A stretch of DNA of 64,000 nt from Pelagomonas calceolata (Eukaryota; Sar; Pelagophyceae; Pelagomonadales; Pelagomonadaceae), in assembly GCA_918797485.1 (NCBI GenBank), contig CAKKNE010000002.1, positions 1,516,501 to 1,580,500 of the forward strand. The letters run 5' to 3'. Below, in pieces: positions 30,278 through 61,472 of the stretch (position 1 is the first letter of the stretch; every line of letters starts with the position of its first letter). Under the pieces are notes generated by a model that worked only from the letters and a program-made list of their open reading frames with translations, did not search any database and was not told where the DNA came from. The translations under genes were made by a program, and so were the position numbers.

Positions 30278-33200
30278 CTACGACGACGCGTCGACGGGCG
30301 GCCCCCGGTGCGGGCTCTCCACCTCATTCCCGAGGACGTCTTCGACCCGCGCTTCGTGCACCTCGGTCACCAGCTCCACCAGATTCGCCACCGCTAGATC
30401 GGCCAGCGCCCTTCCATGATCCGCGGCGGCCTCCCTCGCGTTGCCGACGACGCCCGACGCGTTCAGGTCGTGCGACAGCCAGCCGCATTTTGTGGAGAAG
30501 CCCGGGGCGTGCATCCTTAATTGATTCCGCGTCGCCGGCGGCATGCGCGCCGCGCGGCTCGCGAAATCTTTCGCTGCGCTCAGGTCCACGAGGTCCGGCT
30601 TCAGGTGCAGCATGAGCGACGTCTCCAGGGCCCCGCCGTGGATCCCGTACATCAATTCCTCTTGGGGAAAGACTTGCACCGCCTCCTCATCAGCCGAAAA
30701 GTTCAGGTTGCACGCCAGGACGCAGAGGAGGTCGTGCTCGAGCCGGAGCTGGCGCGCGACGACCTCGGCGAGCGCCTGGTTGCCCCCGTGCGAGTTGTAC
30801 AGAATCAGCTTGCGGAGCCCCGTCCGCGCCACGCACCGCCCTAAATCGCGCCAGAGCCGCGACGCCGTGTCCACGGACAAATCCAAATTGCCCGCGAAGC
30901 GCGAGTGCTCGCCGGACGCGCCGATGTCCAACGGGGGCAGCGCGAGCGCGAGAATATGATCAGGCAGCCGCTTCAGCGCGCGGTCCAGCAGCGCCTTGTT
31001 GTGCATCGCGTCGACGCCCAGCGGCAGGTGCGGCCCGTGCGGCTCCGTCGCCGCGAGCGGCAGGATCGCCACGGCCTCGCTCAGGTCCGTACCGGCAAAA
31101 TCCGTCGTCTTCCACTCGGCCCAGTAGCGCGACCGCTTCTTCGTGGACACGTCCTCGTCCTGGAGCGACGACGTGTCCGCCAAGCGGTACGACGCGGCGA
31201 AGGACCCGCGCGGGTCCGCCGCTTCCTCCGTCGTGGCGCGCTGCTCGTCCCAGGCGCGCATCTTGCCCGGGTTCAGGACGCCGCCGGGGTCGGCCCGCGC
31301 CTTGAAGCCAAGCTGCGCGAAGTCCGTTTGCTTCATGCCGCCGTCTTCCAGCACCTCCGTGTGGGGGTTGAAGATGGGCATGCCGTTCGCTTCGTGCCAT
31401 GCTAAAATTTCATGTAATCTTTCATGTGTCGACGGCCAGAGCAAGGCCAATGACGCAAAACCGACCTTGCCCCCAAACCGCACGCATTCCAAATGCTGGA
31501 GCAACTCTGATGAATCAAACTCGTCCTGGACCTTCTGCACCAACTCCAGTGCTTTGTCCGGCTCGAGCACACTTTGCAAATAAGTCGTGCTCTTGTCCTT
31601 GCGCCGGCAGTGCAGCGTCGTGTGGTTCCATCCAAACTCGTACATGGGCCGCGGCGCATCTTCGGCATTGATCACGCGCGACACCTCGCCCCCGTTATCT
31701 TCCGCGAGTCGTCGGATGGGGCCCACGCCGGCGGCCGCGCACTGCACGAGCGCCACATGATCTCCATCCGTCGAGGGCCGGTCGGCGTGCATGATCGACG
31801 GCTCCTTGTCGAGGAACTTGAACGCCAACGGAGCTTGATAGACGGCGGCGCCCCTACAAGGCACCGACGGCGCGTTCCCGGCGTCCAGCGCGAAGGCCGC
31901 CGCCTCCTTCAGTGAAGGGAAGCACGCCGTCACGTCGACCCAGGGCTGCGCCCGCGCGAGCGGCACCTCCACCGCCACAATAATACCGTTCGTGCCGTAG
32001 GCGTGGACCACGGGGAAGACGTCCCGTCCTCGCAACTCTAGCACGCGCGGCGTCGCTTCCTGTGTGGAAATCGAATTTCGCAACCTAACTCACTGGTCGA
32101 CTTCCGCACAGGTCGCTACCGCGGTCACGACGCGCAGGCCGAGCACCGCGCCGTCCTCGCTCAGCCCGCCGTGCAGGAGCGCGCCGTGGCCCGTCGATCC
32201 GCCGGCCACGAAGCCGCCCAGCGTCGCGTTCCGTCGCGTCGACGGGTGCTGGCGCAGCTCCCAGCCCTGCTGCCGCGTCGCGTCTTCGATCGTGGACAGC
32301 AGGCTGCCGGCGCCCGCCAGGACCGTGCCTCGCTCGGCGTCGAGCTTCTCGATCTGGTCGAGGCCGCTCAGGTCCAGCACGATGCCGCCGAAGAGCGGCA
32401 CGGCCTGGCCGTAGTTTCCCGTTCCGGCGCCGCGCGCGACGACCGGCACGTTTTCGCTGACCGCCGCTGCAACAACACTCACGACGTCGTCTTGCGTTTT
32501 CGCAAAGGCCACGGCGTCGGCCTCCAAACCTTCCAGCTTCTTCGCCAGCACCGGACTATATTCGAACGCGTCGCGCGACAGCTTCCGGATCATGCGTAGC
32601 TGGTTCGCGTCGTCGTCGGCGCGCGCAAACACCTTGACGCCGGCGTCGCGCGCTTTGGCTACGGCAGAAGCGACGGCGTCGGGCGACGGCCGCGCCGCGG
32701 TGGCGAAGCCGCGCGCTTTGGATACACATGACGCACTTGCCGTCGAGAAGCCGCGGCGCCAGCGGGGTTGCGCGCGCCGGCGCGGTCGCGGCACCGCGGC
32801 GATCGCCTCGACCTCCACGAGGAACTCCGGCCGCGCGAAGCCCGAGACAACCATCAGGGTAGAAGCCGTCGGTGGGACGCCTCCCATCGTTTCGTCGCGC
32901 GCTTTCATGTACGCTTGCAAATGGTCGCGATGCGTGACGAACGCATTGAGGCGCACGACATGTTTTTCGTTCGCACCGGCGGCGCGCAGGATCTCGAGCA
33001 CGTTGCCGAGCGCCAAACGCGCCTGGGCCTCGGCACTTTCCGGAATCGAGCCGTCCTTGTGTATGCCGAGTGTGCCCGAGGTGAAGACAAGCTGCGAGTG
33101 CGGCTCGACGACCGTGCCGTGCGCGTAGCGCGCAAAGGGCGGGTGCAGGCGGTGCTCGGAGACGGCCACGGCGGCATGGCTGCTCCTCCTCGTTGCTACG

Positions 33201-33310
33201 GCGCGGGCTGCCACTGGTACGGCGCGGGCTGCCGCAATCGATGGGCGGAGCTTGGAGGCATGCGTCGACGGCGCATTGGCCGCGACACACTGGCGAACCC
33301 GGAGCAACAT
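30278..33310 (-). CDS. RidA - FAD-linked oxidase - creatininase triple fusion
   Basis: Two exons, 33310-32120 and 32059-30278, joined in phase 0, give 990 residues. About 50-165 is a RidA/YjgF domain (HGTVVEPHSQLVFTSGTLG ... GFARPEFLVEVEAIAAV). About 210-580 is a PCMH-type FAD-binding oxidase (VVARGAGTGNYGQAVPL; HPSTRRNATLGGFVAGGSTG), with the C-terminal half around NPHTEVLEDGGM. About 720-960 is a creatininase-family amidohydrolase with metal-site motifs ATEPHGPHLPLGVD, NSHGGN and HGGALETS. The N-terminus may be a targeting peptide. RidA removes reactive enamine/imine intermediates such as flavoenzymes produce, so a linked oxidation, imine clearance and amide hydrolysis route is plausible. 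The substrate is unknown. The 60-bp intron is a mini-introner. Confidence 0.85.
32060..32111 (-). mobile_element. Introner 1 (52 bp), intron of the RidA fusion gene
   Basis: Plus-strand ends are CTGTGTGGAAATCGAATTTC and GGTCGACTTCCGCACAG, imperfect inverted repeats. Flanks read in gene sense are GTAGCGAC and GAAGCGAC (7 of 8). The first copy gives the GT donor and the element end gives the CAG acceptor; the intron is 32060-32119. It is hardly more than two terminal repeats. Confidence 0.85.
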
Positions 33311-33347
33311 GGCTGCCCCAATGTTGCCATTCCCGAGAAATAATAAT

Positions 33348-33371
33348 GCTAGCAGCCTGTAAGATACTAGC
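33348..33371. promoter_or_regulatory. Recurrent intergenic CTAG dyad motif, copy 2
   Basis: GCTAGCAGCC followed by TGTAAGATACTAGC, in the 237-bp gap between the divergent RidA-fusion and PH/C2 genes, 38 bp from the RidA-fusion start. Confidence 0.5.
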
Positions 33372-33547
33372 GAGCTAGCCCAGCCGGCTCAACACGCCAG
33401 TGCGCAGAGACCAGGCGCCACGAGTGCTCTGTTCGTGGTATTCGGTGCTTATTTCACGCAACTCTTTGGCGCGCACCGACTCGCGGCAACGAGATCCCTG
33501 CCAATTTTGAAGCTAGACAGATTACTGGTCGAGCGCAGACAGCATAG

Positions 33548-38144: not shown

Positions 38145-38882
38145 ATGACCGCCGCCGTGTGGATAGTGTGGTTTGCCTTCGGTCTATTGTACTATGGCAT
38201 CACCCTGCTTGTTACTAGAAGCTACAATGTGAACCGACTGCGTGGAAATCAAATATACAGCGCGTTCGTCCTGAATCGCCGCGTCGACCTCCACGCCATC
38301 GACGCGACACCTGCTCGATGGCGTGGCGATGTCGGTTCATCACCGCTCGACGGAACCAGCGCGGCCACGTCATCGCCGAGAAATGAGCACAAGACACACT
38401 GGTTGATTTCCACACAGGTGACCGACGACGACGACGAATTCAAATGTCGCTTCAAGTTTTGGACGATATTTGCCATCTTCACCAGTGAGTTAGCTGGTGC
38501 TTTGCTCCTGTTCGCGACCATAGATAGATTCGGGCGCGTCAAATGCGCGGTCCTGTCCTATTTGCTCGTTGCGGTGTTCCTCATCCCCGTCGCCCTTGAG
38601 GCGTCCGGGACGTTTGTCTGGCTCTACCTCGCGCTGGCATTTGGAACAGCAGGGTCGTCGACAACGTGGGTGCATACGACGGAACTCTATTCGACAGACA
38701 TCCGGTCGACGGCGCACACGCTCGCCTTCATCGTGGGCCGGTTCGGCGGCTTTGCTTCGGGATACGTCGTCGAGAACGCAAACAGCATACCCTTCGCGAC
38801 GACCGTGCTGATCATCATGGCGGCGCTGAGCGCGTTGGGGACGTTGACGCTGCGCGAGACGATGGGGGAGAGACTCAGTTAA
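38145..38882 (+). CDS. C-terminal half of an MFS transporter, with introner; probably truncated
   Basis: Exons 38145-38228 and 38418-38882 join in phase 0 to 182 residues with about six hydrophobic helices. IDRFGRVKCAVLSYLL and TTELYSTDIRSTAHTLAFIV are typical of the loop and helices of the second half of SV2/organic-ion type MFS proteins (about 12 helices in full). The N-terminal half is missing upstream, so this is a fragment or a gene whose 5' exons were lost. The intron (189 nt) has no in-frame stop, so an unspliced message would add 63 residues. The stop lies 3 bp from the stop of the convergent rhomboid gene. Confidence 0.6.
   Translation: MTAAVWIVWFAFGLLYYGITLLVTRSYNVNRLRGNQIYSAFVLNRRVDLHAIDATPARWRGDVGSSPLDGTSAATSSPRNEHKTHWLISTQVTDDDDEFKCRFKFWTIFAIFTSELAGALLLFATIDRFGRVKCAVLSYLLVAVFLIPVALEASGTFVWLYLALAFGTAGSSTTWVHTTELYSTDIRSTAHTLAFIVGRFGGFASGYVVENANSIPFATTVLIIMAALSALGTLTLRETMGERLS
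38238..38417 (+). mobile_element. Introner 2 (180 bp)
   Basis: Ends CTGCGTGGAAATCAAAT and GGTTGATTTCCACACAG. The flanks GTGAACCGA and GTGACCGA are the same 8-mer with one extra A. Intron 38229-38417 uses GT of the first copy and CAG of the element. The inside carries the family core (GTCGACCTCCACGCCATCGA, GCTCGATGGCGTGGCGATG). Confidence 0.9.
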
Positions 38883-38885
38883 TAC

Positions 38886-39928: not shown

Positions 39929-40993
39929 TTAATCCACACCCCCGTACGACGACGCCGACGACGAAGCAGACGAGTCGTCGAGGCGGCTCCGGCGTACGAG
40001 CTCGTCCAGGCCCCCCGCGTCCGCGATGGCCGCGACGTCGAGCGGCGCGCGGAACGACGACAGAGCCGACGCGCGCACGGCGTCGGAGGCCTCGACGACC
40101 CGCAGCTCGAAGGTTTCAGAAGGCGGCCGCGGTCCAGCCACGTTACGTCGGAGCGCGAGCACGTCGCCCCACTCGAACAGTAAAGGGTCCGTGCGCTGCG
40201 CCGCGACGTTCACGTCCACCAAGTAGGTGGAGCGGCGCTCGATCACGACGTCGACGACGCAGTGCGTCGGGAGACTCAGGGCCCGGTCGAAGAACGCGCG
40301 GAGCCTTGCGCGCATTTCATTGAGAGTGGATTCGTCACTCAGGTCGCGGAAGACCGTGTCGACACGGCGCTGGCACGCCGCGACGAGCCGCCCGTCCAAC
40401 AGAAAGCAGCGGAACTCGCGCGACGGCTCCACACTCACGAACCGCCGCACGGCAAGCACGACATTCAATGCGCGGGCCGCGTCGTCCTTGACCAGGGACG
40501 ACGCCGCGAGCAGCGCGAAGGCGTCGCCGGCCGTCGCGCATTCGAGGGAGCCGAGCCACGCGGCGTCCTTGGGCGCCGACCAGTTGAGCTTCACAAAAGC
40601 CGCGCCGCCGACGGCGGCGATGGCCTCATCAATAGCCGCCTCGATCGCCGGAAAATGCGGCGCAGCGCCGTCGTCGTCCGAGTCGCTCAGCTCGCAGTCG
40701 TCCTCCCTGTTATGGGTCCGCGCCGTGACGCGGGCGCCGCGTTTCGTGCGCGGCAGCACGCAGGGGCCGTCGCTCCGGAGCCATTCCACAAATGGCGCCG
40801 GCAGCGGCACGAGGATCGTTTTGAAGGTCACGTTTTTGTGCGCGTCGTACCAGGCGGCGATGGAGCAGGCGTCCTTTTGGTCGCCGCCGAGCTGTGCGGC
40901 GACAGCGTCTTCGATGCTGCAGGCGTCCGTTTGGTCGCCGCCGAGCTGTGCGGCGACAGCGTCTTCTTCGCTGGATGCTTCGAGGGCGGCCAT
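39929..40993 (-). CDS. CDC123: CDC123/D123-family protein
   Basis: 354 residues, single exon. WYDAHKNVTFKTILVPLPAP at the start of the fold, FVKLNWSAPKDAAWLGSLEC, SREFRCFLLDGRLVAACQR and YLVDVNV follow the D123 family, an ATP-grasp-like fold. In yeast and animals CDC123 assembles the eIF2 heterotrimer and so controls translation start. The N-terminus carries two tandem copies of EDAVAAQLGGDQxDACSI, an 18-residue recent duplication outside the family core. Length is normal for the family (about 330-360). Confidence 0.88.
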   Translation of the reverse strand: MAALEASSEEDAVAAQLGGDQTDACSIEDAVAAQLGGDQKDACSIAAWYDAHKNVTFKTILVPLPAPFVEWLRSDGPCVLPRTKRGARVTARTHNREDDCELSDSDDDGAAPHFPAIEAAIDEAIAAVGGAAFVKLNWSAPKDAAWLGSLECATAGDAFALLAASSLVKDDAARALNVVLAVRRFVSVEPSREFRCFLLDGRLVAACQRRVDTVFRDLSDESTLNEMRARLRAFFDRALSLPTHCVVDVVIERRSTYLVDVNVAAQRTDPLLFEWGDVLALRRNVAGPRPPSETFELRVVEASDAVRASALSSFRAPLDVAAIADAGGLDELVRRSRLDDSSASSSASSYGGVD

Positions 40994-41221: not shown

Positions 41222-41990
41222 CTATTCCAACATCCACTTAAACTTCGTCGGCCGCAAAGCCCGCGCGACCTTGTCGTAATTCGAGATGAGACTCCGAACC
41301 GGGAGAGCTCCATGCACGACGTGCGTCGTGTTCTTGAGCGTCATTGTCCGCAGGCGACTCGCGTCCGGCGCCGGCCAGAGCCCCAGCTGGTACATGATCG
41401 TCGCCCACACTTCGGGCCGGTCGACGACTTCCTCGTACCAGTGGAGCCGCGCGTCGCCGCAGCGATTCCGAAACAGCGACGCGAGGCGCTCGTTCTGGTC
41501 GTACTCGTTCGCGATGCGCTCTACGAGCCCGTGGATGCGTATCGACGGCCGGAAGCGCCGGAGGTCGGCTGCAGCGGCGGCCGTCGCGGCGTGCGACGCC
41601 GAGCCGCGCATCTTGGCCGCTTCATTTGATATTTCTCGTCGCAGGACGTTCCGTCTCAAAAGCAGCACATAGGGCAGCTTCATTTCGCAGACGGCAGACG
41701 CTAGCGCCGTCAGCGACGCGAATGGGTGAGTGCCGTGCTGATGGTGGCGCTTCTGGCCCGACCTGTGCGGAAATCACATTCCGTCCCCGACGCCATCGAT
41801 CCGACGTTGATTTCTGCACGGGGCCCAGACGTGTCCAGGTGCGTCATAAACTTGAATCCGAGCGCCGTGCGATAGCTGTTCCGCCGCTCCTCGTGCGCCC
41901 GGGCGAAGACCCGCCGCAGGGCACAGACGCACGCCGGCGACGGCGTCGCGGACGCGCACGCCCCAATCCCTGACTCTCTCTGCTGCGGGT
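41222..41990 (-). CDS. Sulfotransferase-like protein, 5' end unresolved
   Basis: The last exon (41762-41222) and an upstream exon ending at 41831 join in phase 2 across an introner. The join reads RTALGFKFMTHLDTSGQK, then SLTALASAVCEMKLPY and VLLLRRNVLRREISNEAAKM. LLRRNVLRR-x-IS and HWYEEVVDRPEVWATIMYQL (near the C-terminus) fit the PAPS-binding Arg/Ser region and the YEDL-like segment of sulfotransferases. The N-terminal P-loop exon could not be found between here and the next gene at 42151, so the gene may have further introns or be truncated. The stated 5' limit is approximate. Confidence 0.5.
41763..41821 (-). mobile_element. Introner 3 (about 59 bp)
   Basis: Plus-strand ends CTGTGCGGAAATCAC and TTGATTTCTGCACGG. 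Flanks in gene sense are GTCTGGGC (donor copy) and GTCGGGCC. Intron 41763-41830 restores the sulfotransferase frame. Like introner 1 it is nearly all terminal repeat. Confidence 0.75.
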
Positions 41991-42971: not shown

Positions 42972-45900
42972 CTACACGCGGAGCCCCGCGATAAACTCGG
43001 CGTCGCGGATTCCTCCGAGGATGGCGCGCGCCGCGTCCGAGTCAGAGGGAATCGCCATGTCGTCGAGGTCCGACTCGTTGAGCGACGGCAGCACCTCGTC
43101 ATCGACGTTCTGTGACAGGAACTTCGTGAATAAGTGCGGGCGTTCGAGCTGCGAGAGGAAGCGTGCGACGAGGGCGTAGCCCGCAGGCGCGCCGCCGACG
43201 AGCGCAATCGCCGCGTCGTCGCGTGTCGCGGCGGCAGGCGCGGCGGCAGCGGGCGGCGGCAGCGGCCGCGCGACACCTAACGCGGCGTACGCACGCGCCA
43301 CCTCCTCGTCGATGGCCAAACGTCGTCTCTCCGCGTCGGCCTCTACGGCCTGTAGCGACGCGGCCACCACCGCGTCGTCGATGACCTCGTCCGGCTCGTC
43401 AGCGACCGCCGGTGCCGAGGCCTCGCGCGCACTCAGCGCCAGAACGGCGCGCAGCTGCTCCTCGTCGTCGCCGTGGCGGCAGCTCTCCGCGCGACTAGCC
43501 GCGAGGGCTCGCTCGAGCTCGTCGTCCTTCGCCGAGGTCTCGGCCAGCGAGGCGGCCAGCGCGCGCTCGAGATCGACATCTTCCGTAGAAAAGACGACGC
43601 CCGCGTGCCGGTCCTCCACGGCCCTCGCCGCGTACGTGAGCGCTCCGCCGCCGATGGTCCAAGCCATGGGCCCGGGCTGCAGCATCGCGAGCGGCGCAGC
43701 CTCGTCGTCCTCGTCGTCGCTATAGTCGGTATCCGAGTCGCCGCCCTTCCTCTCTTCGTGACCATAAATGTCGCGCGCGGACAGGGCCGTCGCGCGCGCC
43801 AGATCCTCCGCCTCCCGCTGGCGCGCGACCGCGTCCGCGAGCTTCACTTCGGCCTCATCCCGCGCCTCCATGGTCGCCACGATCAGCTCCGCGCTTCTCC
43901 GCTCGGCCGCCTCCGCAGCCGCGTCTTCGTCCGCGCGCGCCTTACTTTCATCCAATGCGCGCTGCAGGGCCGCGGCCTCCTCCGCGGCGGCGGCATCTCC
44001 CGCCTCGGCGCTCACGTCGTCGACCGCGCGCCGCTCGTCGATCTCGGGCGCCGGCGCGCGGTCGGCAGCGCCCGTCGCGCGGTCGGAGGCGCCCGGTTCC
44101 GGCAGCACCGACACGGCCGGGAGCGCCGCCGCCTCCGACAGGAGCACGTCCGGTAATGATGGAGCCGGCGCGCCCGGCTCGCGCAGGATGCGGATGTGCC
44201 GCTCCGGCGACCGGTCGTAGGACCGCGTGCCCACGCCGTAGACCTCGCAGACGGCGTGCGCCTTGCGGCGCTCGGCGCGCCGCATCGGCCGGAGGCTGTG
44301 GGCCGTCCTCCTTGAATCGGCCACGAACGCGCCGAGCTCCTTTTCTAATCTCTTCACGCGCCGCGGGTCCTTGCGCGCCCACGTCAGGAGCTCGTCGGAC
44401 CAGAGCTGCGCCGCGGCGTGCTTGAGACCGCCCGCGAAGACGTCGACCTTGCGCTTCGCCGCGGCGAGGTCGTCGAGGACGCGGCCCTCGCGCTCGGGGC
44501 TTCTCGAGGTCTCCGGCTGCGGCACACTCGTGCATTTCGAGTACTCTTTCACGGCCTTGAGCTGCTTTTCCACCGCGGCGCTCGCCGCGCGCCGCGAGGC
44601 CTCGTCCCGCACCGCCAGCTGCTTCATGCGCTTCTCGACGGTGTCTTCCGTCACCTGGAGCTGGTGCCAGATCCCCGCCAGTACCAAGTTCTTGCCCGTT
44701 CCTATCTTCATCCACGGCGGGACCTTGCCGGTCGCCGCCCAGGCCGGGCAGACGAGGCCCCTCCTCAAGGGATTCTTCGCCTTGGCAAGGTCCCGCCCCA
44801 GAGCCTCGAGTTCGCCGGTCGCGCGCAAGTCCAACGCCCGCGCGGCCACGCTGCCCATCGCCACCGCCTCCTTCGAGGCGGCGCCGTAGTGGTCGGCCAG
44901 GACCTTCCACGCAAAGGCGGACTCGGCAACGATCGGCCCGGCCTCCAAAATGAGCCGCAGCGACGAGATTGGGCCGTGCAAGTCCGACGACCGCGCCTCC
45001 GTGGCCCGAGGCGAGAACGCGACCTCTGCCACGCGCGCCGCATTTGCCGCGGCCGCGGCCTGCAGCGCGTCGTCGCCCCGGTCGTCGCGCGCCGCGTACG
45101 TCGCCGGCTCGACCGGATTCACGCGCAAGACGATCTCCCTGGCCGTGCCTTCGGCCACAAGGCAATATATTTTGTCCCCGTCATAGTCTCCGCCGGCCAT
45201 CATGTCCGCGACGGGCCGCGGGCCCTCGGCGGAGAGGACCAAGAGGTTCCGCAAAGACCTACAATCCAGGCCGGCCGGCGGCGCGACCGCCGTTAATTTT
45301 CTGACGTCGCCGGGATGCGTGCACGGCGACCGCCAAACGAGGAGCTTGCCGCGATATTCTCCGCCGGCCACGAGACACTCGCCCTCCTTCAATCCAACCC
45401 ACCGGTCGCAGACGCAGAACGCGAGCCACAGGTGGTCGCACGGGATGCTCATCTTGTTTTTCGCTAACGTCAGCTGTGTGGAAATCAACCAGTGAGTCGG
45501 GTACATCGCGTCGATGGCGTGGAGGTCATGATTGAGCCGTGATGAAGACGCGTTGCGACAATTTGATTTCCACACAGAACGTCACCGCCGCCCTGATCGC
45601 TTTCAGCACGCTCGCTTCTTCGGGCTTGCCGTCGACGCCCAGCGGACCGCGCAGCCGCAAGTCGACGAGGTCCTCCTCGTCGTCGCCCTCGAGCTCGAGC
45701 GACTCGTCCACGACCTGCAGCGCCTTCAAGGCGGTAGAGAGGCGGGCGAGCTGCTCGCCGGTCGCGTCTCCGCTGTAGCCGCCGCCGCTGCCGTCCACGT
45801 CGACAGGCGTCCACATGAGCGTCTTTCTGATGAAGACGCGCAGCAATTCGTGCAGGAGGTGCGCCGCGTCGCCCAACAGGTGCTCCAAGCAGACGAGCAC

Positions 45901-48081
45901 CTGGAGGAACAGCATGTTCCCCTCCTTCTTGATGGACGCGAACTCCTTGACCTCGAGGCGCAGGTCGCCCGACGGCGCCTTGACCATGGACGGCGAGAGC
46001 AGCACGCGGCGCACCGTGGGCCCCATCCGGGGGTCGACGACCAGCATGCCCTTGCTTCCGCCGAACCTAACTTGCATGGCGCCACCGCCATCGCTTTCGT
46101 CGTGGCGCGCCCGCCGCGCGGCGTCGCGCGCCAGCGCCGGCGATATCAGGCCGCAGCCGTCGCTAAAGTTGTGGCCGTCGTGGTAGATGTCGGGCGCAAC
46201 CTCGACCTCGTGGCGCTTGAGGCGCGACGTCGGCAGCGTCGTGGAGAAACTGTTCCCGATGTACTTGCCCCTCTTCGCGTCCGGGACCCCTTCAAAATCG
46301 CCCAGCGACGCGATCAGGGCCGGCACCGAGCGGAACGCCGGATCGCTATCGTCGGGCAGCGGCGCCAGGAACGTCGCGACCGGTTTGGGCCCTTTGTCGT
46401 ATACGTAACAATAGACGCGGCCGCAGCAGCGAATCGGCGCCAGCTCGCCGTCGTCCGTCACGAGACGCTCGACGACGTCTACGTCCTTGAAGCCGAACTG
46501 TACATTGGCCCAACGATCCGAGTGTCTGAGGTTGCGGTGCGTCGCTCGCTTGTACTCCGACGCCAGCTTCAAGGACGTCGGCACGAGCCGGAGCTCGTGC
46601 GCCATCGGGTCGCGAGAGAAGGCCGCCCGGTAGTGCGGCACCGGCCAGCGCGCCGCGACGGAGGCGTCCACGCCGCCCGACCTGTGTGGACATCAACCAG
46701 TGAGTTAGGTTACTTGCGGAGACCTTCGTGAACCTCCACGCCATCGAGCAGACGCAGTGGGGCGTCCGAAATTTGATTTCCACACAGCGCCCGACAAGAG
46801 CTCGTGCTCCCTCCTCCCGACAGTCCGCTCCCAGTCCTTCCTAAACTTTTGGGCCTCGCGCAAGGCCTCGCGCACGGCGCGGCGGAAATCATTCAAGGCG
46901 TCGGCGTCCGTCTTGTTGCCGCGTCGTTGCGCGCAGAGCTCCGCGCGGAGCGTCCGCAGCGGCTCGGCGAGCTCGATCGCAGCTTTCTCCGCCTCGAGCC
47001 GCCCGCTTCCCTCGCGGTTCCACGCGCGCGCGAGGATCGCCACGACGTCCGTCTCGAAGGCGCGGAGCACGTTCTCCACCGCGACCGCGTTCGGCAGGGG
47101 CGTGTTCTCCGAGACCACCGCCTCCGTCTGGAAGGTGAACGGGAAGGGGAGCTCGGCCGCCGCCGCGCGCCGGAACGCGGCCAGCCGTTTCTTGCACGTG
47201 TCGTCGAGGATGCACGCCTCGAGCACGCGGACGCCGTGGGCACCAAGCAGCATCCGGTTCTGGTCCCGCCGGACGAATCGCTCCGCCGCAGCGGTAATCT
47301 TCGACTCCTCGAGTCCCTTCTGGTAGTCTTTGTCGTTCACGTCGTACTTGAGCTGCCTCCACTTCTTCATTTCGAGTTGCTGCTCTTCGGTCGGTTCGAT
47401 CGGGGGCGGCTGCCACACCTCGATCTCCTGCGCGGTCCGGCGCCCGGCGCCGCCGATTGCGAACGGCCGCGAGGTAATGCCCTGGCGCAGGCAGCGTCGG
47501 CAGTCGAACATCGTAACCTGCTGCTCGTTCGCCACTAGCCCGTCCGCGAACAAATGTGCTCCGTTGTCGAAGGGCTCGTCTAGACCCGACGCGGGCCGGC
47601 AATACCCGCAGCTGCTGCAGACGGCTATGGGGGCCGAGAAGACGCCGCTTTGTCGGCACTCCCAGACGGCCATCAAACACCCGTCGGCCCCAACCCAGGG
47701 CTTAATGGGAGGCTGTAACGCGCGCCGTAGCGCTAAAGGAGCCCGGACGTCGTCCACCACTTCAGGCGTCGGCTCGCCCTCGTCTCGCGCGTCCCGTAAC
47801 AATTCTTCCGTATCTACGTTGCGTGGATTCGTGCGGCGGAGCGCGGGGTGCCGCGACGCGGGCTGCGGCGGCCGCGGAGGCAGTGGTGCTGGCGTGTCGT
47901 TCGCGAAAGCACCTCCTGTCCGCTGAGGCGTCGTCCTCGCTTCGGCCTCTTGCCGGGCCGCCTCTTCCTTCGCCTTGACCGCCTCCTTTTTGAGGGCCTC
48001 CGCGTGACAGGCCTCGGCACGCCTTGCTGCGGCCTCGCGCTGAATCTGTGCGCGAAGCGCTTTTTGTCTTTGGCTGGGCAT
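42972..48081 (-). CDS. Eukaryotic RNA-dependent RNA polymerase with UIM-like motifs and SAM-like domain
   Basis: Three exons, 48081-46796, 46681-45586 and 45473-42972 (1286, 1096 and 2502 nt), join to 1627 residues. Exon 1 has a coiled, charged start and CxxC pairs (VCSSCGYC ... DCRRC), possibly zinc-binding. Exon 2 has NFSDGCGLISPALA and MQVRFGGSKGMLVVDPRM, and exon 3 has CTHPGDVRKL and the catalytic MMAGGDYDGDKIYCL. These are the conserved blocks of cellular RDR/QDE-1 polymerases that turn single-stranded RNA into dsRNA for small-RNA silencing. The C-terminal third holds UIM-like helices (DLERALAASLAE; ELERALAASRAE; QLRAVLALSARE) and a SAM-like end (FLSQLERPHLFTKFLSQNV, DDEVLPSLNESDLDDM). 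Both introns are introners. Confidence 0.88.
45474..45577 (-). mobile_element. Introner 4 (104 bp), RdRP intron 2
   Basis: Ends CTGTGTGGAAATCAACCAG and TTTGATTTCCACACAG. Flanks in gene sense are GTGACGTT and CTGACGTT (7 of 8). Intron 45474-45585 joins phase 0. Here the acceptor-side copy has lost the initial G, while the donor copy keeps GT. Confidence 0.9.
46682..46787 (-). mobile_element. Introner 5 (106 bp), RdRP intron 1
   Basis: Ends CTGTGTGGACATCAACCAG and TTTGATTTCCACACAG with a perfect 8-bp duplication, GTCGGGCG on both sides in gene sense. Intron 46682-46795 joins phase 2. It is the cleanest copy in the window and so probably the youngest. Confidence 0.95.
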
Positions 48082-50381: not shown

Positions 50382-51599
50382 ATGCTAGGCACCCTGCAGC
50401 AGCGCCATAAAAGGCAGGACGTCGAGCAGCCGCCGCTGAGCCCGAAAAAAACGACAACAACGCCAGCGAACAAGGGCGCGAACGCGTTAGCATTACTAGC
50501 CCTCGTCTTCTTCGCGAGCGCCGCGCCCGTCGCGACGCAATTGGTAAGACGGCCCGACGGCTCGTACCCCTTTGAAGTGGTCGACGTCGTGCTCCGCGCC
50601 GAAATTTTGAAATTGTGCATCGCATCCACTTGCCTCGCGTACGAGCTCCGCGGTCTAGGAGAGACGGAGCGGCGCGAAAGGGCCCCAACGCCAACCACAA
50701 AAGGGCTGCTCCTGACGCTCGCGGTCGGCGCGGGCTACCAAGCCCTCAACATTTTGGGGGGCTTGGCCATGCGCGTCCTCGACGACCCGACGCTCTTCGC
50801 CGTTATTGTTCAATCAAAAGTCGTCTGGACGGGCGTGCTGGGCGTCTACGCCTTTGGTAGGCGGCTTTCGCCCGCGCGCGTCTTCTCCTTGGTACTGGTC
50901 GCTCTTGGTGCGTCCGTCTGCGCGGCGCCCAAACCTGTGTGGAAATCAAATTTCGGGCGCCCCACGCCATCGACGCGACGTGCCTCCGTAGCTGCGTCTC
51001 TCACTGCATGATTTCCACGCAGGCCCAAGCCGAACACTGATGTGGAGAAGGTGCGCACACGAATAACAGGCTGCCTCCTGGCCGGCGGCGCGGCGCTGCT
51101 GTCTGCTATATTAACCGTGGCCTGCGAGGCCGTGGTGAAGCGCGGCCGCGCGTCGCTGCACTGGCAGAACCTGCAGCTGTACGTTGTCGGCATCCTGGTG
51201 ACGGCGTCGACGCTGACGCGGCCACCATCATTGGTGATCTCCTACGCCATGGGCGCCCTGATCGTGCTCGAGGCCTGCAAGGGCCTCGCCATATCGTTGG
51301 TATTGAAGCGCACCGACGCCGTCGTGAAGACGCTCGCTACCACATTATCGATCCCGGGCGTCGCGGTCATGGAGCGCCTCGTCGTGCCGGGCGTCGCGCC
51401 GATGGCGCTGCCCATGCTATTGGGCGGCGGCGCCGTCGTGTTGGCGATCACGGCGTACCACGAGGGCCCCGACGGCCGCGACAAGCCGTTCCTCGCCGCG
51501 GCGCTCGGGCTGACGCTGTTCGGGGCCGCGACGCTTGTGGTCGACGCGGGGTGGCCGCGCCGCGAGCTCTTGGGTTCCGAGTCGCCGCCGCCGGACTAA
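50382..51599 (+). CDS. Nucleotide-sugar transporter (SLC35A-like)
   Basis: Exons 50382-50926 and 51023-51599 join in phase 2 to 373 residues. About ten hydrophobic helices are seen. GYQALNILGGLAMRVLDDPT then VIVQSKVVWTGVLGV matches the conserved SLC35A helix pair, and LHWQNLQLYVVGILVTA matches its WxRNxQL motif. The family exchanges UDP- or CMP-sugars for the nucleoside monophosphate across the Golgi membrane. The exact sugar cannot be read. The intron is an introner with a GC donor (GCCCAAAC). Confidence 0.87.
50935..51022 (+). mobile_element. Introner 6 (88 bp), GC-AG intron
   Basis: Ends CTGTGTGGAAATCAAATTTC and TGATTTCCACGCAG. Flanks GCCCAAAC and GCCCAAGC (7 of 8). Only a GC donor at 50927 keeps frame, so the intron 50927-51022 is GC-AG. 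Confidence 0.9.
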
Positions 51600-53327: not shown

Positions 53328-54782
53328 ATGACCGATGCGGAGGCAACGGGCTCGCGCCGCGAGCGCTGCGCGCTAGCTGCGGCTTTTTTGCTCTCGGAGA
53401 CGACGCAGGACGCGGCGGTCGCGGCGAGCGCTTTGGTGGCGCTCCAGTTGTTCGGAGGCTACGAGGAGTCGCTCTTCATCGTCATCGTCATGACGATGTT
53501 ATTAATTGGCATCCAGCTGTCGCACGTCGTCGGGCGCCGAGGCTGGACGCTGGTCCTCGGCGGCGCGGCGGTCTGCGGCGCGGCCGGGCTTGCGATGCTC
53601 GGTGCGGCGCTTTCATCAAACTTCGGGCCGCGGAACGCTGGGATGTTGGCGATCGCTGGCTCGGTTCTGCTCGGCGCCCACCGCGCGGCGCACATGCTTT
53701 ATAGGTTTGCAGCTTTAGAGATAGGTGGCGTCGCGTGCATGGGCGAGGTCTTCGCGGCGGCGACGTTGGGTGGTTTGCTCGGGCCGCAGTTACTGATAGA
53801 TCTTGGTTTGCAGAAGGGCCTAGTTTGGGCCGCCGTGGCGCAATTGGTCGCCGTGATACCGATCATGCTCGCGACGCGGGGCCGCGACGCCGCGACGGCG
53901 GCCGACCGCGCGACGGCGGAGGACTCCGGGCGCTCGATCACGGCCGCGCTCCGGAAACTGCGCGATGCGGCGCGCGGCGACGCGCTGCTGCGCCTCGCGC
54001 TCATCTGCGGCGTGACGTCGTGGGCGATCATGCTGCTGGTGACCGTGCCGGCCGCGGCCATCGCCGTGGCGTCCTTCAAGATGACCACTTGCGCGGCGAT
54101 CCGCGCGTTGCAGGTGCACATCTGTGTGGAAATCAAATTTCGGGCGCCCCACGCGTCTGCGCGATGGCGTGGCGATTCCACGCTATCGACGCGATGTTGT
54201 CCCCGTGACCGCGTCGACTCCATGGCGTGGAGGCTCGCGAAGGTCCACGGCCTAGCTCACTGGTTGATTTCCGCACAGGTTCACGATTTTCTGATGAACG
54301 CGCCGGGCCCGGCCACGGCCGCCGTCGTCGAGCGCTCCGGCCCGCGCGCGGCCATCGCCTTGGGGCTTTTGATCTACGTCGTGGTCGTGGGCGGCCTATG
54401 GGCCTGCGGGAGCGACGACGCGCTGTATCCTGTGGTGACGGCGGGTGGGCGCGGCGAGCGCTTAGTCCAGCAAGCCTTCTTTGGCCTCGTCGTGGTCTTG
54501 GCCCTAGGCTGGAATTTCATGTGGCTCGCGTCGACGTCGGCGTTGGATGCTGCCGCTCGCGCGGGCGGCGCGACGAGCTGCGGCGAGATAGCGCAGATCC
54601 GCACGGCGAACGAGTTCTGCATCTACTCTGCGTCGGTAGCGTTTCTCCTCGTGTCGATGGTCACGCGCGACCGCTACAAGGACGTCGTCCTCATCAGCGC
54701 GCCGTTCCTCGTGGCAGTGGCCGTGGCAACGGGCCAGGCCAAGTCGCAAGCCTATGGGGTCGTCGAGACGGAGCTCCCGTGA
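53328..54782 (+). CDS. MFS transporter
   Basis: Exons 53328-54113 and 54279-54782 join in phase 0 to 429 residues. About 12 hydrophobic helices are seen (for example LFIVIVMTMLLIGIQLSHVV; WTLVLGGAAVCGAAGLAMLG; LALICGVTSWAIMLLVTVPA). The join gives VHDFLMNAPGPATAAVVERS, the usual start of the second half of many MFS exporters, and FGLVVVLALGWNFMWLASTS follows. The substrate is unknown. The introner has no in-frame stop and is a multiple of three, so an unspliced message would add 55 residues in the middle of the protein. Confidence 0.82.
   Translation: MTDAEATGSRRERCALAAAFLLSETTQDAAVAASALVALQLFGGYEESLFIVIVMTMLLIGIQLSHVVGRRGWTLVLGGAAVCGAAGLAMLGAALSSNFGPRNAGMLAIAGSVLLGAHRAAHMLYRFAALEIGGVACMGEVFAAATLGGLLGPQLLIDLGLQKGLVWAAVAQLVAVIPIMLATRGRDAATAADRATAEDSGRSITAALRKLRDAARGDALLRLALICGVTSWAIMLLVTVPAAAIAVASFKMTTCAAIRALQVHICVEIKFRAPHASARWRGDSTLSTRCCPRDRVDSMAWRLAKVHGLAHWLISAQVHDFLMNAPGPATAAVVERSGPRAAIALGLLIYVVVVGGLWACGSDDALYPVVTAGGRGERLVQQAFFGLVVVLALGWNFMWLASTSALDAAARAGGATSCGEIAQIRTANEFCIYSASVAFLLVSMVTRDRYKDVVLISAPFLVAVAVATGQAKSQAYGVVETELP
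54122..54278 (+). mobile_element. Introner 7 (157 bp)
   Basis: Ends CTGTGTGGAAATCAAATTTC and GGTTGATTTCCGCACAG. Flanks GTGCACAT and GTTCACGA (5 of 8). Intron 54114-54278. The left 30 bp closely match introner 6. Confidence 0.88.
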
Positions 54783-54914: not shown

Positions 54915-56724
54915 TTAGCAGAGCGGCGAGAAGCCGTACGTCGTCGCGTGGACCACCTGCATAATCCCATCATACGTCATGAGCACCAGCGCGATGAGCA
55001 TGATGCTCGCGATGACAAGAATCACGATCGCGTCCTTTTTGTATTTTCTCACGACCCAATCGATAACCGACTGCCCGAGGAACGTCGAGAACAGGCCGCA
55101 CGCCGCGAAGGCGAAGGCGTAGTCCTTTGGGACCTGTGCGCAAAGCAATCCGTGAGCCGCACCGCCACGCCGTCGAGTAGGCGTCGCGTCGATGGCGTGG
55201 ATGCGCCGCAACCATGTGATTTATGCACTGACGCCGACGAGGCCCATGATCCAGACCTGCGCCAACCCCGACGTCGCCGTGATGAAGACGACGTAGGCCG
55301 ACGTCGCCGCGATCGGCTGGGGGAGGCAGCCCAGCTCGACCAGCAGCGGGCCGAGGACCATGCCGCCCCCAATACCCAATAACCCCGCGGCTATGCCCGC
55401 GAACACACATAACATGGGATACAATGCCGTCGTCCGCCGGTCCCACTGCAAGTCGCCCTCGAGCGGCTCGTGCCCTAGAAACGCCTTCTCCGTGGCCCGG
55501 TCCAGCGTCTTCTTCCTTATCCACGCCGTCGCCGCAATAAGCACCTGTGCGCGAATCAAACCGTGGGTCGGGTGCACCATTTCTCGGCGACGACGCGACC
55601 GTGCTGGTCAAGTCAGAGAACCGCACGGCCAAGCCGTCGAACAGGCGCCGCGTCGATGGCGTGCAGGTCATGGTTCAGCCGTGGTCGGAGAAACGCCGCG
55701 ACATTTGATTCATGCGACATTTGATTCATGCACTGATGAGCACGGCTAAATTGCTGATAAAGAGATACCAGTACAGGAACTGCGAGCAGTCCAAACCCGG
55801 GATCAGCGACGCGCCGCCGCGGCCGCCCCGCAGCAGCGCAAAGACGAAGACGATGAGCCAGATCACGCCGGTGGCCGTCCAGTTCTCGCGCTGCACGAGC
55901 GAGCCCTCCTTGGCGTATATTGCCTCGAGACGCGCCAGTTGATCAGGAGTGGGGTCCTGGCGCGCGATGGGCGGCGCGTCGGCGTGGCCCAGCGGCGTGT
56001 CGATCTCCACGTCCTGCAGGCCCGCCTCGTCGCGCGTCGGCCGCGGACTAAGTTTGTCCTCGCCCGTCCACCGTTTTATCCCCTTGTTTAGAGTGCGTCT
56101 TCCCGAATAGCCGAGCAGCGCTATGAGCAGAACCACCGTGAGCCACGGAGGAAACATGACGCTAAAAACGGAGCCGAACATGGTCCCCGCGAGGAGCGCG
56201 GGGCAGAAGAGCAGGGAAGCCTCGTAGTCGATGAGCGGTCGCTTGATAGTATCGTTCGGGTGGTAGCGCCGCGTATACGTATAGAGGTTCGCGATGGAGC
56301 CCCCCGAGATTGTTGCCAAAGATAACGCCGTCGCTTGCGTGATGGGGAAGCCGGCGACGAGCCGGTAGATGGGCACGAGTAACCCGCCGCCGCCGATGCC
56401 GCCGCCCGCGGCCAGCGCCGTCGCCGCAATCAGTAAAAAGATCGTCGCCCAGTCGTGGCCGTTCGCCGGCACCAGGTCCTTGTGCATACATATGCGCTCC
56501 CGAAAGTCTTCGCCGTCCTCCGTGTCGCGGTCCCATTCACAGCTCGTGCTGAACGGGCACTCCGTCTTGCCGGGGTAGCAGGGGCCGCCCGCGACGCCTT
56601 GCTGTTTCGCCTTGTTCTTGCTGATCGACTCATCCTCTGGTCTCAGCTCTCTGCGGAGCCATGGCTGCTCCTCCAGCGCTGTGGCTGTGCAGCAGAACGC
56701 TACGACAGCAGCGCTTCGACGCAT
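54915..56724 (-). CDS. TauE/SafE-family (TSUP) membrane transporter
   Basis: Exons 56724-55744, 55544-55239 and 55133-54915 join in phase 0 to 501 residues. A signal peptide (MRRSAAVVAFCCTATALEE) and a Cys-containing lumenal segment precede the first helices. The family repeat appears twice, GGGIGGGGLLVPIYRLVAGF in exon 1 and GIAAGLLGIGGGMVLGPLLV in exon 2, which is the inverted-repeat build of TSUP/TauE-SafE sulfite and organosulfonate exporters. About 10-12 helices in all. The substrate is inferred only from family. Both introns are introners of the CTGTGCG type. Confidence 0.87.
55134..55230 (-). mobile_element. Introner 8 (97 bp)
   Basis: Plus-strand ends CTGTGCGCAAAGCAATC and TGATTTATGCACTG. 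Donor copy GTCGGCGT; acceptor-side flank GTCCCAAA, so the duplication is largely decayed. Intron 55134-55238 keeps frame. Confidence 0.75.
55545..55735 (-). mobile_element. Introner 9 (191 bp)
   Basis: Plus-strand ends CTGTGCGCGAATCAAAC and TTGATTCATGCACTG. Flanks in gene sense are GTGCTCAT and GTGCTTAT (7 of 8). The right end holds a 17-bp local duplication (gcgacatttgattcat twice). Intron 55545-55743. Confidence 0.85.
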
Positions 56725-56771
56725 GGTGCTGCTCGCCGCAGCAGCAGGAGCAAAGACAGAGGCGCAAAAGA

Positions 56772-56897: not shown

Positions 56898-59800
56898 TTA
56901 CACGGTCCCGAAGTCCCCGACGTCCTTCGCCCGCGAGTACGGGCACCGCCCCTCCTTGAGGACGGCGTACTCGAAGTCGTCCTCGTGGAAGAAGCGGTGG
57001 CACGACTGCGAGAGGGCCATGTGCACGTCGGGGATGGCGCTCTTGTAGTACGTCGCTCTCAAACCTTGTTGGCGCGGCTTGCAGCAGAAGACCTCGGCGC
57101 GGTAGAGCGATCTTAATGTTTCGGCGTCGACGGTCACGGGCTTGTACTCGTCGGCGCCGGCTTGCGCCTGGAGCGTGTCGTTGATCGCCCGCGTGAAGCG
57201 GTCCTCGTCGTCGTCGTCGTCGAACACGACGTCAGCTTCCTTCCCTTCACCCGAATTCTTGTCCTCCGGGAACTCCTTGATCAAATCCAAAGCCTCCTCG
57301 TCCGAGATCGACGCCTCCGGCACGAACTCGATGAGCGGCAGCACTTCAAAGTTCAGAAAGCTCCGGACGAACGGGTGGCCGCACGACGTGCAGACGTCGC
57401 GGTGCACGCTCGACCCTTGGCTATGCGATGAAGCAGGGTTCAATAGTGCATTGGAGGCGCCGCAGCGGTAGCAGACCGGCAGCAAGTCGCTCTTATCCCT
57501 TAAAGGCGCCGCATGGATCGTCAACGCCTCCACATCCACTTCATCCCGCCACGCATCCGGTAATTTCATCCTTAATAATTTATCATAAGCATATCTCGCT
57601 AATTTAAAGGCGCCGCAGGTCTTCGCTTGTTTGGCTAGAGTATACAGTATTTTCGCCCGCGAGATACCAAATGGGGCTTCTTTCCCACCCAAGCCATTAA
57701 TTAAGAAGCGAGCGCATTGAAAGAGCACTTCCGGCCGCAACGGCGTATAAGGTAAGAAAAAATCTTCGACATGAGCGTAGGCGTAGTACAAGTCGGCCCT
57801 ATGCAACTGCTCGGTGTACGTAGACATAACTTTCTGTAAGTTATCTTTTTTAGCTGCGACGCGTAACGTCTCGGACGCCAGCAACCAGTAGTAGTAGGAC
57901 GCGTCCTTGAAGCGCGATTCCACGACGGCGTTAAACGTGAGCTCTTGCACCATCCGCGCCGCGCGGTCTTCGCGCCCCGACTTCCTATAAGCTTCCAGCG
58001 CTTCGTCAAATCTGTCGTGGACGGCGAGCCACTCGGCGTAGGGCAGATATAGGGCTTCATCAAATTTCGCTCGAGTTTCTTCGCTGAAGGTCCCGCTCGG
58101 GTCCTCCGCTAATTTGAGGGCCGCCTCCCAGTCCTGCTTTCGGACATATAAGCCTAGTAAAGATTCAACATCATCAAGCTTCACGTAGACCTCTTTGGCC
58201 CGCTCGTCGTCGCCTGCGGGGACATCGACCAGTGTGTCGGGTGCATCGCCACGCCATCGAGCAGTGACAAGCTCTCTCGCGACGCCTCGCGCTGCCCACG
58301 GCGACGACCTGAGGCGCTCATCCACTGATAGGGAGCGTCTCGCAGCACTACTTCCCCACAGTTGAGACTCGCGTCCGGCGACGCGTCGATGGCGTGGAGG
58401 TCGACGCGACGATTTCCACACGGATCGTCGCCGTTCGCCAAAAACGCGCGCGCGCACTGCCGCAGCACATCCTCCGCCGTCACCTGCCGTACTATGAGAG
58501 AAAGTTTCTCGATCCAGCCGTCCGGCTTGTGTTCGTGTAATAGCCTGTGCGCAAATCAACCAGTGAGTCGCGTGCACCGTCGAGCGGCGAGGAACCGGCA
58601 TCGCCACGCCATCGAGCAGGCGTCGCGTCGATGGCGTGGAGGTCGACGCGATGATTCAGCACACAGGTAAGAACCGAACGGCCTGCAGCGCATTCCCGGC
58701 AGACACCTGCAGATCCGCGGCGGCGGACCAGTCCGACGTCTCTTCCGCCCATTCCGCCTGCTTCCTGGTTAATTCGGTCGCGTCGACGTTCTTCGACGCA
58801 GCGGCAAAGGCCTTGGCCTCGTCCCATTGCCGCAAGTCCGCGAATAGGTCGATGGCCTTCTGCGGCTCGCCGGCCTTCGCAAACGCTCTGGCCGCGTCCT
58901 GGTACTTGCCCTGGTAGGCCTGGAGCTCGGCGCGGAAGATGGGCGCTAGTTTCTCGACTTCTTCCGGTAGACCTGCGCGGAGCATCAAATTCGACAAAGA
59001 AACCACCCCCGGCCATCATTCCTGGAAACGAGTGAAGTGGAAGACACCTCAACGCCTCAAAACGCGGCGATCGAACCCTCCGGTTCCGCTTTCTTCCTCT
59101 TGGAGATCTTCTTCGGTTTCGCGACCGGCATCCGCCGCTCCATCGACGTCAGTAACTCGATCCGTCGCAGGTCGTGGACCTTCGCATACGCCGTTTGTGC
59201 TGTGGTCAAATCTAACGCGTTTGCTGCGGAGTCGGCTAAGCTTCTCCAATCCGTCGCCGTCACGCCGAGGCGCGCGCAACTCAACCCTCTAGAATGTTCA
59301 TTCTTGGAGATGAACTGTTTCAGATGATCGGACTGGGGCAGGTCCAGCGACTCGATTTTGAGGTCCCTCGCCACAAATAATTTAGCCCCGACGAATCCGA
59401 CGACTGACCCTGAAACTTTGTGGACCTTGGCGTCGTGGTCGCCCGTCTTCACTAATAATTCATCGCGGTCGTTCCGCGAGTAGCACAGCGTGTCGTCGAA
59501 CTGGGCGTTGAAGCGACACGCCGAGACGCCCTCCGCCTGTGTCGAACGACAGATGGCTGTGTAGACGCTCGCACGGCCGCGTCGATTGTGTGGAGGTGGC
59601 GTGACGTCGTGGCGACGCCCTCGTCCCAAAGTTGAAGTTCATTCATCAAAAACGGACGCCGAGTCGGCACCGAGAACACGAGTTCTTTACTACGAGTGTC
59701 GACCACTTTGAGCTCGTTCTCTTGATTCACGACGGCCAGCTTCCTCCTATCACCCGTCCGATCTAGTAACTTGACCGCGGCTTCACCTGCGCGGAGCGTC

Positions 59801-61472
59801 GCGGTCGCTCGACGCCGACCGAACGGCCTCAAACTCGACAAAGAAACCACCCACTTCATGGTGAGATGGATACGAGTCGCGTCGACGGCGTGAAGGCACC
59901 GAAGCACCGCGGGACGCCGAGATCGCACCTCTCCAGACGTCGACCGGAAACGCGTTGTTCACGTAAATTTTCAGAATGGAACCATCACTACAACCTATCA
60001 GTACGCCCTCCTTGCTTGGTGGACCGCCATCTACTCTCAGACACGTGATATCAGCGTCGAGGATCCATTCTCGCTCCTTCAACTTCGAGAAGCCGTGTAG
60101 AGTTAACTTCGCACCAGAAGCTACCAACACATGTTGCGACGTCACCCCCAAATGATTCGTACGAGAACCGTCGACCCTCAACCTTTCTTTCCGCAAGCGA
60201 TAGTGCATATCAATACTGTTGTCATCCCTCTTATGAAGTTCGTACACATTAATTCGATCCGGCAGTTGGATGGCCAGCCGATCCCGATAGATCGCCACCT
60301 TCCGCACGTAGTCCCTACTCTTAATACGCACGCGCTTCTCGGCGTGCATGTGGTGGACGACCACGTCCGTCAGGTGTTCCCGGACCGCGAACCGGTCGCC
60401 ATCTAATGCGTATATAGGTTCAATTACGACATCCCAGAGCTGGATGGAGCCGCCGTAGGACCCAACCGCTATAGCAGGTTGGCGAGGCCTCACAGCGGTG
60501 GACCAGACCCACTCGTCTATACGACAAACGTCTTTGAGTCGCACGGCTTCCCTCGTACACAAAGTTGTTTTCTTGTCACTGCCACCGACCACTAAATACT
60601 CGCCGTTCGGGTAATAGGAGAGACTGGTCGGATAGCATCCTAATTTTCTCTCTTTCAAATGTTGGGTCCCGGACAGCTGGTAGAACGACAGCGTCTGGTC
60701 CCAGCACCCGACGGCCAGGAGGTCTCCCGGGTCCTCCTTCGCGGGACTCCAGGCCAGGCACCAGACTGGGGCTTTCTTTTCAATCAGCTTGTACTCCTGG
60801 CCACCCTTGTCTCGTATACTAATGCGACCGTCGTACATACCTGTGTGGGAACGATGCCGTCACGAAACCGTCTCCCTCGCGAGACGCGTGGACTCTCTGA
60901 CGGCCACGTCGACGGCGTCGCGGCGGTGCGGTCTCATGAAGACGCCATCGCCGCGACCACGTCAGGTTCAAGTTCATTTTCTGCGCCGAGTCAGCACCAA
61001 GAGCCAAGTACTGCCCGTCGTGCGACCACCTCGCGGACAAAATCTTCGCCCCGACCTTGTGCTTCGTCACGGACTTGGCCGTCGAACTCCACAACCCAAA
61101 ATCACCCTCGGTGCACGACGCGAGCTGGTCGCAGCAGGGGTTGTGCGCGACGACTTGGATGCTATCGCTATGCGTATATTTTAACACTCCTTCTCCTTTG
61201 CTGTTCCAGATAATCACGGTGTTGTCCGCGCCGCCCGACGCAAATTTAGAACCTTCCCTCCCATAACTGACGGTGTACACCAAGTCCTTGTGGCCTCTTA
61301 ATCTGTGTCGCAGGTCGCCGTCTTCAGTAGCGTATACTAACACAAGGTTAGCTACAGCGACCACCAGTTCCGTCCCGGACGGGTTGAAGGCCATGCTGTA
61401 GACCGTGGCCTTGACGTCGTCCTCGCGCCGCGGCGGGAGGCCCGGGTCCGTCCAGAGGAGCTGGGGCCGCAT
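56898..61472 (-). CDS. IFT122: Intraflagellar transport protein IFT122 (IFT-A)
   Basis: Seven exons: 61472-60998, 60840-59929, 59786-59671, 59536-59077, 58972-58675, 58544-58432 and 58213-56898, total 3690 nt, 1229 residues (the usual length is about 1,200). The N-terminal WD40 part matches closely: YTHSDSIQVVAHNP, ASCTEGDFGLWSS, MYDGRISIRDKGG, LSYYPNGEYLVVGGSDKK, then REWILDADITCLRVDGGPPS. The TPR-like second half has YVRKQDWEAALKLAEDP and DASYYYWLLASETLR. The C-terminal zinc-binding end has LPVCYRCGASNALLNP, CTSCGHPFVRSFLNFEVLPL and a late CP. IFT122 is a core subunit of the IFT-A complex for retrograde transport and cargo entry in cilia. All six introns are introner-like and all joins keep frame. 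Confidence 0.93.
58214..58423 (-). mobile_element. Introner 10 (210 bp), IFT122 intron 6, GC-AG
   Basis: Plus-strand ends CTGCGGGGACATCGACCAG and GATTTCCACACGG. Flanks in gene sense GCGACGAT and GCGACGAC (7 of 8). A GC donor at 58431 keeps frame; intron 58214-58431. It carries the family core twice in opposite orientation. Confidence 0.88.
58545..58666 (-). mobile_element. Introner 11 (122 bp), IFT122 intron 5
   Basis: Plus-strand ends CTGTGCGCAAATCAACCAG and GATTCAGCACACAG. Flanks in gene sense GTTCTTAC and GCTATTAC (6 of 8). Intron 58545-58674. The inside is very close to introner 2 (GCTCGATGGCGTGGCGATG core). Confidence 0.9.
58973..59068 (-). mobile_element. Introner-like element 12 (about 96 bp), IFT122 intron 4
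   Basis: Begins CTGCGCGGAGCATCAAATTC on the plus strand and shares TCGACAAAGAAACCACCC with element 14. Flanks GTTCGATC and GTCTACCG barely match. Intron 58973-59076 is needed to keep the IFT122 frame and alignment. Old copy. Confidence 0.65.
59537..59662 (-). mobile_element. Introner-like element 13 (about 126 bp), IFT122 intron 3
   Basis: The acceptor end is CTGTGTCG on the plus strand. The inside has a decayed core (GTCGATTGTGTGGAGGTGGC against the usual GTCGATGGCGTGGAGGTCG). Flanks GTGCCGAC and GCGGAGGG no longer match. Intron 59537-59670. Confidence 0.65.
59787..59920 (-). mobile_element. Introner-like element 14 (134 bp), IFT122 intron 2
   Basis: Starts CTGCGCGGAGCGTCGCGG on the plus strand and has CTCGACAAAGAAACCACCC as in element 12, plus a decayed GTCGACGGCGTGAAGG core. 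Flanks GTGCGATC and GTGAAGCC (4 of 8). Intron 59787-59928. Confidence 0.68.
60841..60989 (-). mobile_element. Introner-like element 15 (149 bp), IFT122 intron 1
   Basis: Plus-strand start CTGTGTGGGAACGATGCC; gene-sense start TCGGCGCAGAAAATGAAC, like the TCGGCG start of elements 13 and 14. Flanks GTGCTGAC and GTATGTAC (4 of 8). Intron 60841-60997. Confidence 0.7.

Follow-up and report, generated by a model that had tools for sequence, protein, structure and literature searches.

Putative introners and a second group of repeated introns in a 64,000-nucleotide stretch of the Pelagomonas calceolata genome

Can the repeated introns of a single genomic region all be traced to one kind of mobile element that follows one splicing rule? 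We address this question in a 64,000-nucleotide stretch of Pelagomonas calceolata DNA (GenBank assembly GCA_918797485.1, contig CAKKNE010000002.1, positions 1,516,501 to 1,580,500 of the forward strand), referred to below as the window. Positions 32060-60997 hold 15 candidate introns, called by reading frame or by likeness. A previous sequence-only reading had assigned all of them to introners under one rule, in which the acceptor lies in the element and the donor in the duplicated target. An element-borne acceptor with a target-borne donor is well supported by the sequence for 11 of the 15, termed family 1, and we put the probability that these copies represent an introner-type family of short, non-autonomous DNA transposons at about 0.9. 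The remaining four, introns a-d of the IFT122 gene, depart from the rule; they form two further repeated pairs, a with c and b with d, whose donor was more probably copied along with the sequence.

Inverted ends and target duplication in family 1

A terminal CAG and a GT or GC start, as claimed earlier, are seen in each of the 15 candidate introns (Table 1); 13 start with GT and two with GC. Family-1 introns lie between ends close to CTGTGTGGAAATC...GATTTCCACACAG, an inverted arrangement of CTGTGTGGAAATC and its reverse complement, and the two ends of a copy agree at 8-13 of 13 positions. Random pairs compared over the same 13 positions average about 3.6 matches; 342 of 20,000 reach 8 and 7 of 20,000 reach 11. 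The eight bases at the donor recur after the acceptor, with a full match (8/8) in one family-1 copy, five copies at 7/8, two each at 6/8 and 5/8, and one at 3/8. The values given earlier, namely 8/8 at 46682, 7/8 at 32060, 45474, 50935, 55545 and 58214 and fewer elsewhere, were reproduced without change, and removing one base brings the copies at 38229 and 41763 to 8/8, as judged by eye on the flanks. Summed over the 15 introns, 81 of 120 positions match, against a permutation mean of 49.9 and a maximum of 74 in 100,000. In family 1 the match peaks at the proposed donor and acceptor (offset (0,0) among 625, mean 6.18/8); in IFT122 a-d it is at chance.

Over positions 3-8, family-1 donor 8-mers are alike among themselves at 1.60 of 6 positions versus 4.45 of 6 when each is compared with its own downstream exon; being unlike each other yet like the exon that follows, they are as expected of a duplicated target. 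Terminal inverted repeats together with a target duplication, the combination that characterizes introners, were found in family 1 only. Members of the family, alike in sequence, lie at unrelated sites in eight gene models.

An independent end-pair scan of the window returned 10 pairs, all within nine of the 11 family-1 introns and eight of them with an 8-mer match of at least 5, while 20 shuffled windows gave 1-10 pairs each and, in total, three 8-mer matches of at least 5. Counted singly and with up to 3 mismatches allowed, family-1 ends number one in the first 30 kb and 24 in the remainder of the window. Nine copies have the CTCACTGGTTGATTTCCACACAG-like end type at the acceptor; the other two (32060 and 41763) are reversed, as judged from their longest matches. 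An inner module, CCTCCACGCCATCGACGCGAC, is present with at most 3 mismatches in 11 places, all within the candidate introns, IFT122 b and c included; exactly 4 mismatches are seen in five further places, three of them outside introns. RNA folding gave a z of -2.0 or below in 7 of the 15 introns, six of which belong to family 1.

Some family-1 copies also have an inner palindrome, CCACGCCATCGA...TCGATGGCGTGG, nested in the outer inverted ends (38286-38326, 58598-58644). An end-like match at 59200 was rejected as an element, being coding IFT122 sequence, and for intron f an inner end at 58361 gave an 8-mer match of 1/8, the outer end at 58423 giving 7/8.

Table 1 Candidate introns of the window, with phase, match of the flanking 8-mers and match between the two 13-base ends.
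Feature	Coordinates	Strand	Phase	8-mer	Ends	Remarks
Family-1 intron, reversed, FAD dehydrogenase/creatininase gene	32060..32119	-	0	7/8	11/13	gapless join in PDB match 6v42
Family-1 insertion, half sugar-transporter gene	38229..38417	+	0	5/8 ungapped	12/13	189 nt, open in frame, candidate intron
Family-1 intron, reversed on longest match, unnamed gene	41763..41830	-	2	6/8 ungapped	11/13	ORF 185 vs 153 aa
Family-1 intron, RdRP gene	45474..45585	-	0	7/8	13/13	one RdRP domain spans join, 191 bits
Family-1 intron, RdRP gene	46682..46795	-	2	8/8	12/13	ORF 1627 vs 1173 aa if kept
Family-1 intron, GC donor, nucleotide-sugar transporter gene	50927..51022	+	2	7/8	12/13	spliced protein Nuc_sug_transp 75.6 bits
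Family-1 insertion, MFS-like membrane protein gene (our label, no Pfam match)	54114..54278	+	0	5/8	12/13	165 nt, open in frame, candidate intron
Family-1 intron, TauE gene	55134..55238	-	0	3/8	9/13	donor-side end CAGTG; TauE 82.8 bits spliced
Family-1 intron, TauE gene	55545..55743	-	0	7/8	10/13	donor-side end CAGTG
IFT122 intron f, family 1, GC donor	58214..58431	-	1	7/8	9/13	gapless join
IFT122 intron e, family 1	58545..58674	-	2	6/8	8/13	gapless join
IFT122 intron d, b-related	58973..59076	-	1	2/8	1/13	departs from rule; 7/8 at offset (-8,+4)
IFT122 intron c, a-related	59537..59670	-	0	3/8	1/13	departs from rule
IFT122 intron b, d-related	59787..59928	-	1	4/8	1/13	departs from rule
IFT122 intron a, c-related	60841..60997	-	1	4/8	4/13	departs from rule; gapless join

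Under the mechanism we propose, a transposase from elsewhere would insert a family-1 element with an 8-bp stagger. The element's terminal CAG would supply the 3' splice site, the two bases (GT or GC) that open the upstream target copy would supply the 5' splice site, and the second target copy would restore the exon without loss. In most copies CAG is read outward at either end, so that both orientations can probably splice (nine copies forward, two reversed).

Several observations weigh against this account. The end comparison over 13 bases used boundaries placed by eye, two copies being given a 9-base lead, and the end-pair scan overlooks 2 of the 11 copies. The duplication at 55134 reaches only 3/8, two other copies (38229 and 54114) are open in frame, and no autonomous partner or transposase family was found among the 27 window open reading frames (ORFs) scanned. 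Separately, exact-match searches with 20-21-base pieces of the element, which diverged copies escape, returned nothing from viral_contigs (three patterns) or genome_contigs (one pattern).

Reading frames and proteins across the joins

Removal of the element and one duplication copy restores the frame or the ORF length in 9 of the 11 family-1 copies, the other two being open in frame. After splicing, seven ATG-to-stop models translate: FAD/creatininase (990 amino acids, aa), RNA-dependent RNA polymerase (RdRP, 1627), nucleotide-sugar transporter (373), MFS-like (429), TauE (501), IFT122 (1290) and half sugar transporter (182). The longest ORF is shorter when any one of 13 introns is kept. The IFT122 ORF, 1290 aa when fully spliced, drops to 634-1070 aa with one intron kept; the change in the uncertain gene at 41763 is only that given in Table 1. 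The earlier claim that splicing gives coding frames stands on these models, except at 38229-38417 and 54114-54278, which the frame does not support. Across the 15 introns, seven are in phase 0, four in phase 1 and four in phase 2.

Predicted splicing restores proteins that align across the joins in IFT122, RdRP, FAD dehydrogenase and TauE. Spliced IFT122 gives one 923-bit match that covers all six joins; joins a, b, c, e and f are gapless, and join d falls within a gapped loop. FAD dehydrogenase scores 328 bits with a gapless join, RdRP 191 bits spliced versus 99 and 89 for the unspliced pieces, and TauE 82.8 bits spliced versus 38.2 for its first piece.

At 38229-38417 and 54114-54278 the longest ORF gets longer when the insertion is kept. 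The half-transporter and MFS-like frames are uninformative on splicing, because both models are also open unspliced. It might be supposed that the two insertions are retained and translated instead of spliced: both are multiples of three without a stop, their unspliced ORFs reach 245 and 484 aa, and the Sugar_tr score is 22.5 bits unspliced versus 20.1 spliced. This difference, however, lies near the family cutoff, and both insertions share their ends and donor bases with copies whose removal is required. We consider retention unlikely; the two are called introns on likeness alone and stand here as candidate introns.

The four other introns of IFT122 and the rest of the window

Inverted ends were not found in IFT122 a-d, which match at 1-4 of 13 positions, and their own 8-mers match at 4, 4, 3 and 2 of 8, respectively, where chance gives about 3.3. 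Two pairs stand out among the four. The likeness of a to c and of b to d was reached by none of 300 shuffles, the other four pairings being reached by 39 to 275 of 300, and within either pair the donor 8-mers agree at 7 of 8 positions. On these two grounds, the donor of a-d is probably part of the copied sequence. The donors resemble those of the sister intron and not the introns' own downstream exons. The rule claimed for all 15 introns is well supported in family 1, by its ends, duplications and restored frames, but is not followed by these four.

One could still place all 15 introns under one rule by taking a-d as older family-1 copies with decayed ends and duplications. The split between the groups is indeed not clean, since the family-1 inner module is found in b and c (2 and 3 mismatches), and 99 of 100 shuffles lie farther from family 1 than c does. 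Decay should nevertheless also have erased the likeness between donors, yet this persists at 7/8 within both pairs beside own matches of 2-4 of 8, and a, b and d are not clearly nearer to family 1 than shuffles (reached by 11, 8 and 34 of 100). We consider decay less likely than not. That a-d are instead ordinary introns duplicated within the gene, and not mobile elements, seems doubtful. The pairwise likeness lies within one gene and intron a has weak matches outside introns (six places, and one for intron d, at E 0.008 or better when introns were compared with the window), as this explanation would have it; however, a-d occupy different, non-homologous protein positions, and the family-1 module is present in both b and c. 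Two repeated pairs with copied donors are our preferred reading of a-d.

In intron d, the 8-mer just before the donor is repeated four bases after the acceptor (7/8 at (-8,+4)), a value reached at that offset by none of 210 mismatched pairs. Taken over all offsets of the scan, a match of 7 or more is attained by 42 of 210 mismatched pairs. Because this 8+4 geometry was spotted post hoc, is lacking in intron b and has that background, we treat it as a lead only. Intron c has an exact 8-mer repeat (8/8 at donor +7 and acceptor +11); in the same scan, 8/8 is attained by 4 of 210 mismatched pairs.

The window has a GC content of 65.3%; PMC9481584 gives 63% GC and introner-length introns for Pelagomonas and 67.4% GC for Aureococcus. 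Together with the introner type, the GC content suggests a pelagophyte-like alga. Its eukaryotic genes include IFT122, a PF05183 RdRP with R3H, TauE/SafE, a nucleotide-sugar transporter, rhomboid, D123 and others. Introns were located through repeats or protein homology, a procedure that repeat-free introns in homologue-less genes escape, so that the earlier description of introners as the almost exclusive intron source stands as a conjecture. A codon-bias frame scan was too noisy to define genes by itself. Rfam and tRNA scans were empty. For the gene at 41763 the Pfam scan gave no supporting family, and a sulfotransferase assignment was dropped as a guess without Pfam support, the only match being LcrR below the cutoff.

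A single gene model at 30278-33310 fuses an L-PSP (RidA-type) domain, the FAD-binding dehydrogenase and a creatininase domain. The sugar-transporter frame at 38145-38882 matches the C-terminal part of its Pfam family only, and the frames inspected immediately upstream showed no N-terminal half. At 40858-40965 the D123 reading frame contains a 54-nt tandem duplication (94%). In the large array at positions 1-24946, a 300-nt reference recurs about 19 times at intervals of roughly 0.85-1.5 kb, with one gap of more than 5 kb; the array overlaps a 3747-aa frame that is uninterrupted and carries Laminin_G_3 and DUF285 domains.

Relation to known introners and transposons

The window offers a base-by-base view, with protein homology at many joins, of how DNA transposons can turn into introns while the protein is unchanged. 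It also suggests that a single donor rule is insufficient for all repeated introns even in one gene, which matters for counting intron-gain mechanisms. Introners of Aureococcus anophagefferens and Micromonas pusilla, which Huff et al. are said to have described in 2016, reportedly share the mechanism proposed here for family 1.

Among DNA transposons, the hAT element Hermes is described in PMC10368747 and PMC2803484 as using an 8-bp target, nTnnnnAn. Family 1 resembles hAT elements in its 8-bp duplication and in the CAGTG end of two copies. Its donors have T at position 2 in 9 of 11, a base that the GT donor itself dictates, and at position 7 an A is found in 6 of 11 (5 of 11 in the downstream copies). 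It differs from them in that most of its ends read CTGTG and no transposase was seen among the ORFs scanned. The donor-side tip is CTG in seven copies, CCG in two and CAG in two, and the acceptor-side tip is CAG in 11 of 11, partly by intron definition. None of the 10 papers listed by our literature search contained both 'introner' and 'hAT', and the main text of PMC9860276 does not contain the word hAT. In a speculative and rather improbable scenario, IFT122 would have received introners with opposing donor rules, target-donor in family 1 and own-donor in a/c and b/d, with family 1 possibly of hAT type and a one-base tip change from CAGTG to CTGTG turning an outward ...CACTG into the acceptor ...CACAG.

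Introner family 4 of Aureococcus sp. carries both splice sites, makes an 8-bp duplication and adds 12 bp, according to the legend of Fig. 2F in PMC9860276. It shares the 8-bp duplication with our elements, and the 8+4 geometry of IFT122 intron d is comparable to it; the resemblance nevertheless concerns one intron only, was noticed after looking and is missing from b of the same pair. The Symbiodinium microadriaticum introner, as given in the legend of Fig. 2B of the same article (PMC9860276), is similar in design to family 1, with a carried 3' splice site, a 5' site taken from the duplication and terminal inverted repeats, but its duplication is 4 bp compared with 8 bp here.

Family 1 also resembles the introners of Aureococcus anophagefferens and Micromonas pusilla. 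The sections of PMC10228655 and PMC9860276 (section 7; Gozashti 2022) that treat this kind of mechanism describe short genic DNA elements that carry one splice site, co-opt the other from the duplicated target and occur in both orientations, as in family 1. The present case differs from these in that IFT122 a-d depart from the arrangement. The introner mechanism proposed for family 1 is already known in marine algae; what is new here is a fresh example of it, together with a correction to the claim that one rule governs all 15 introns.

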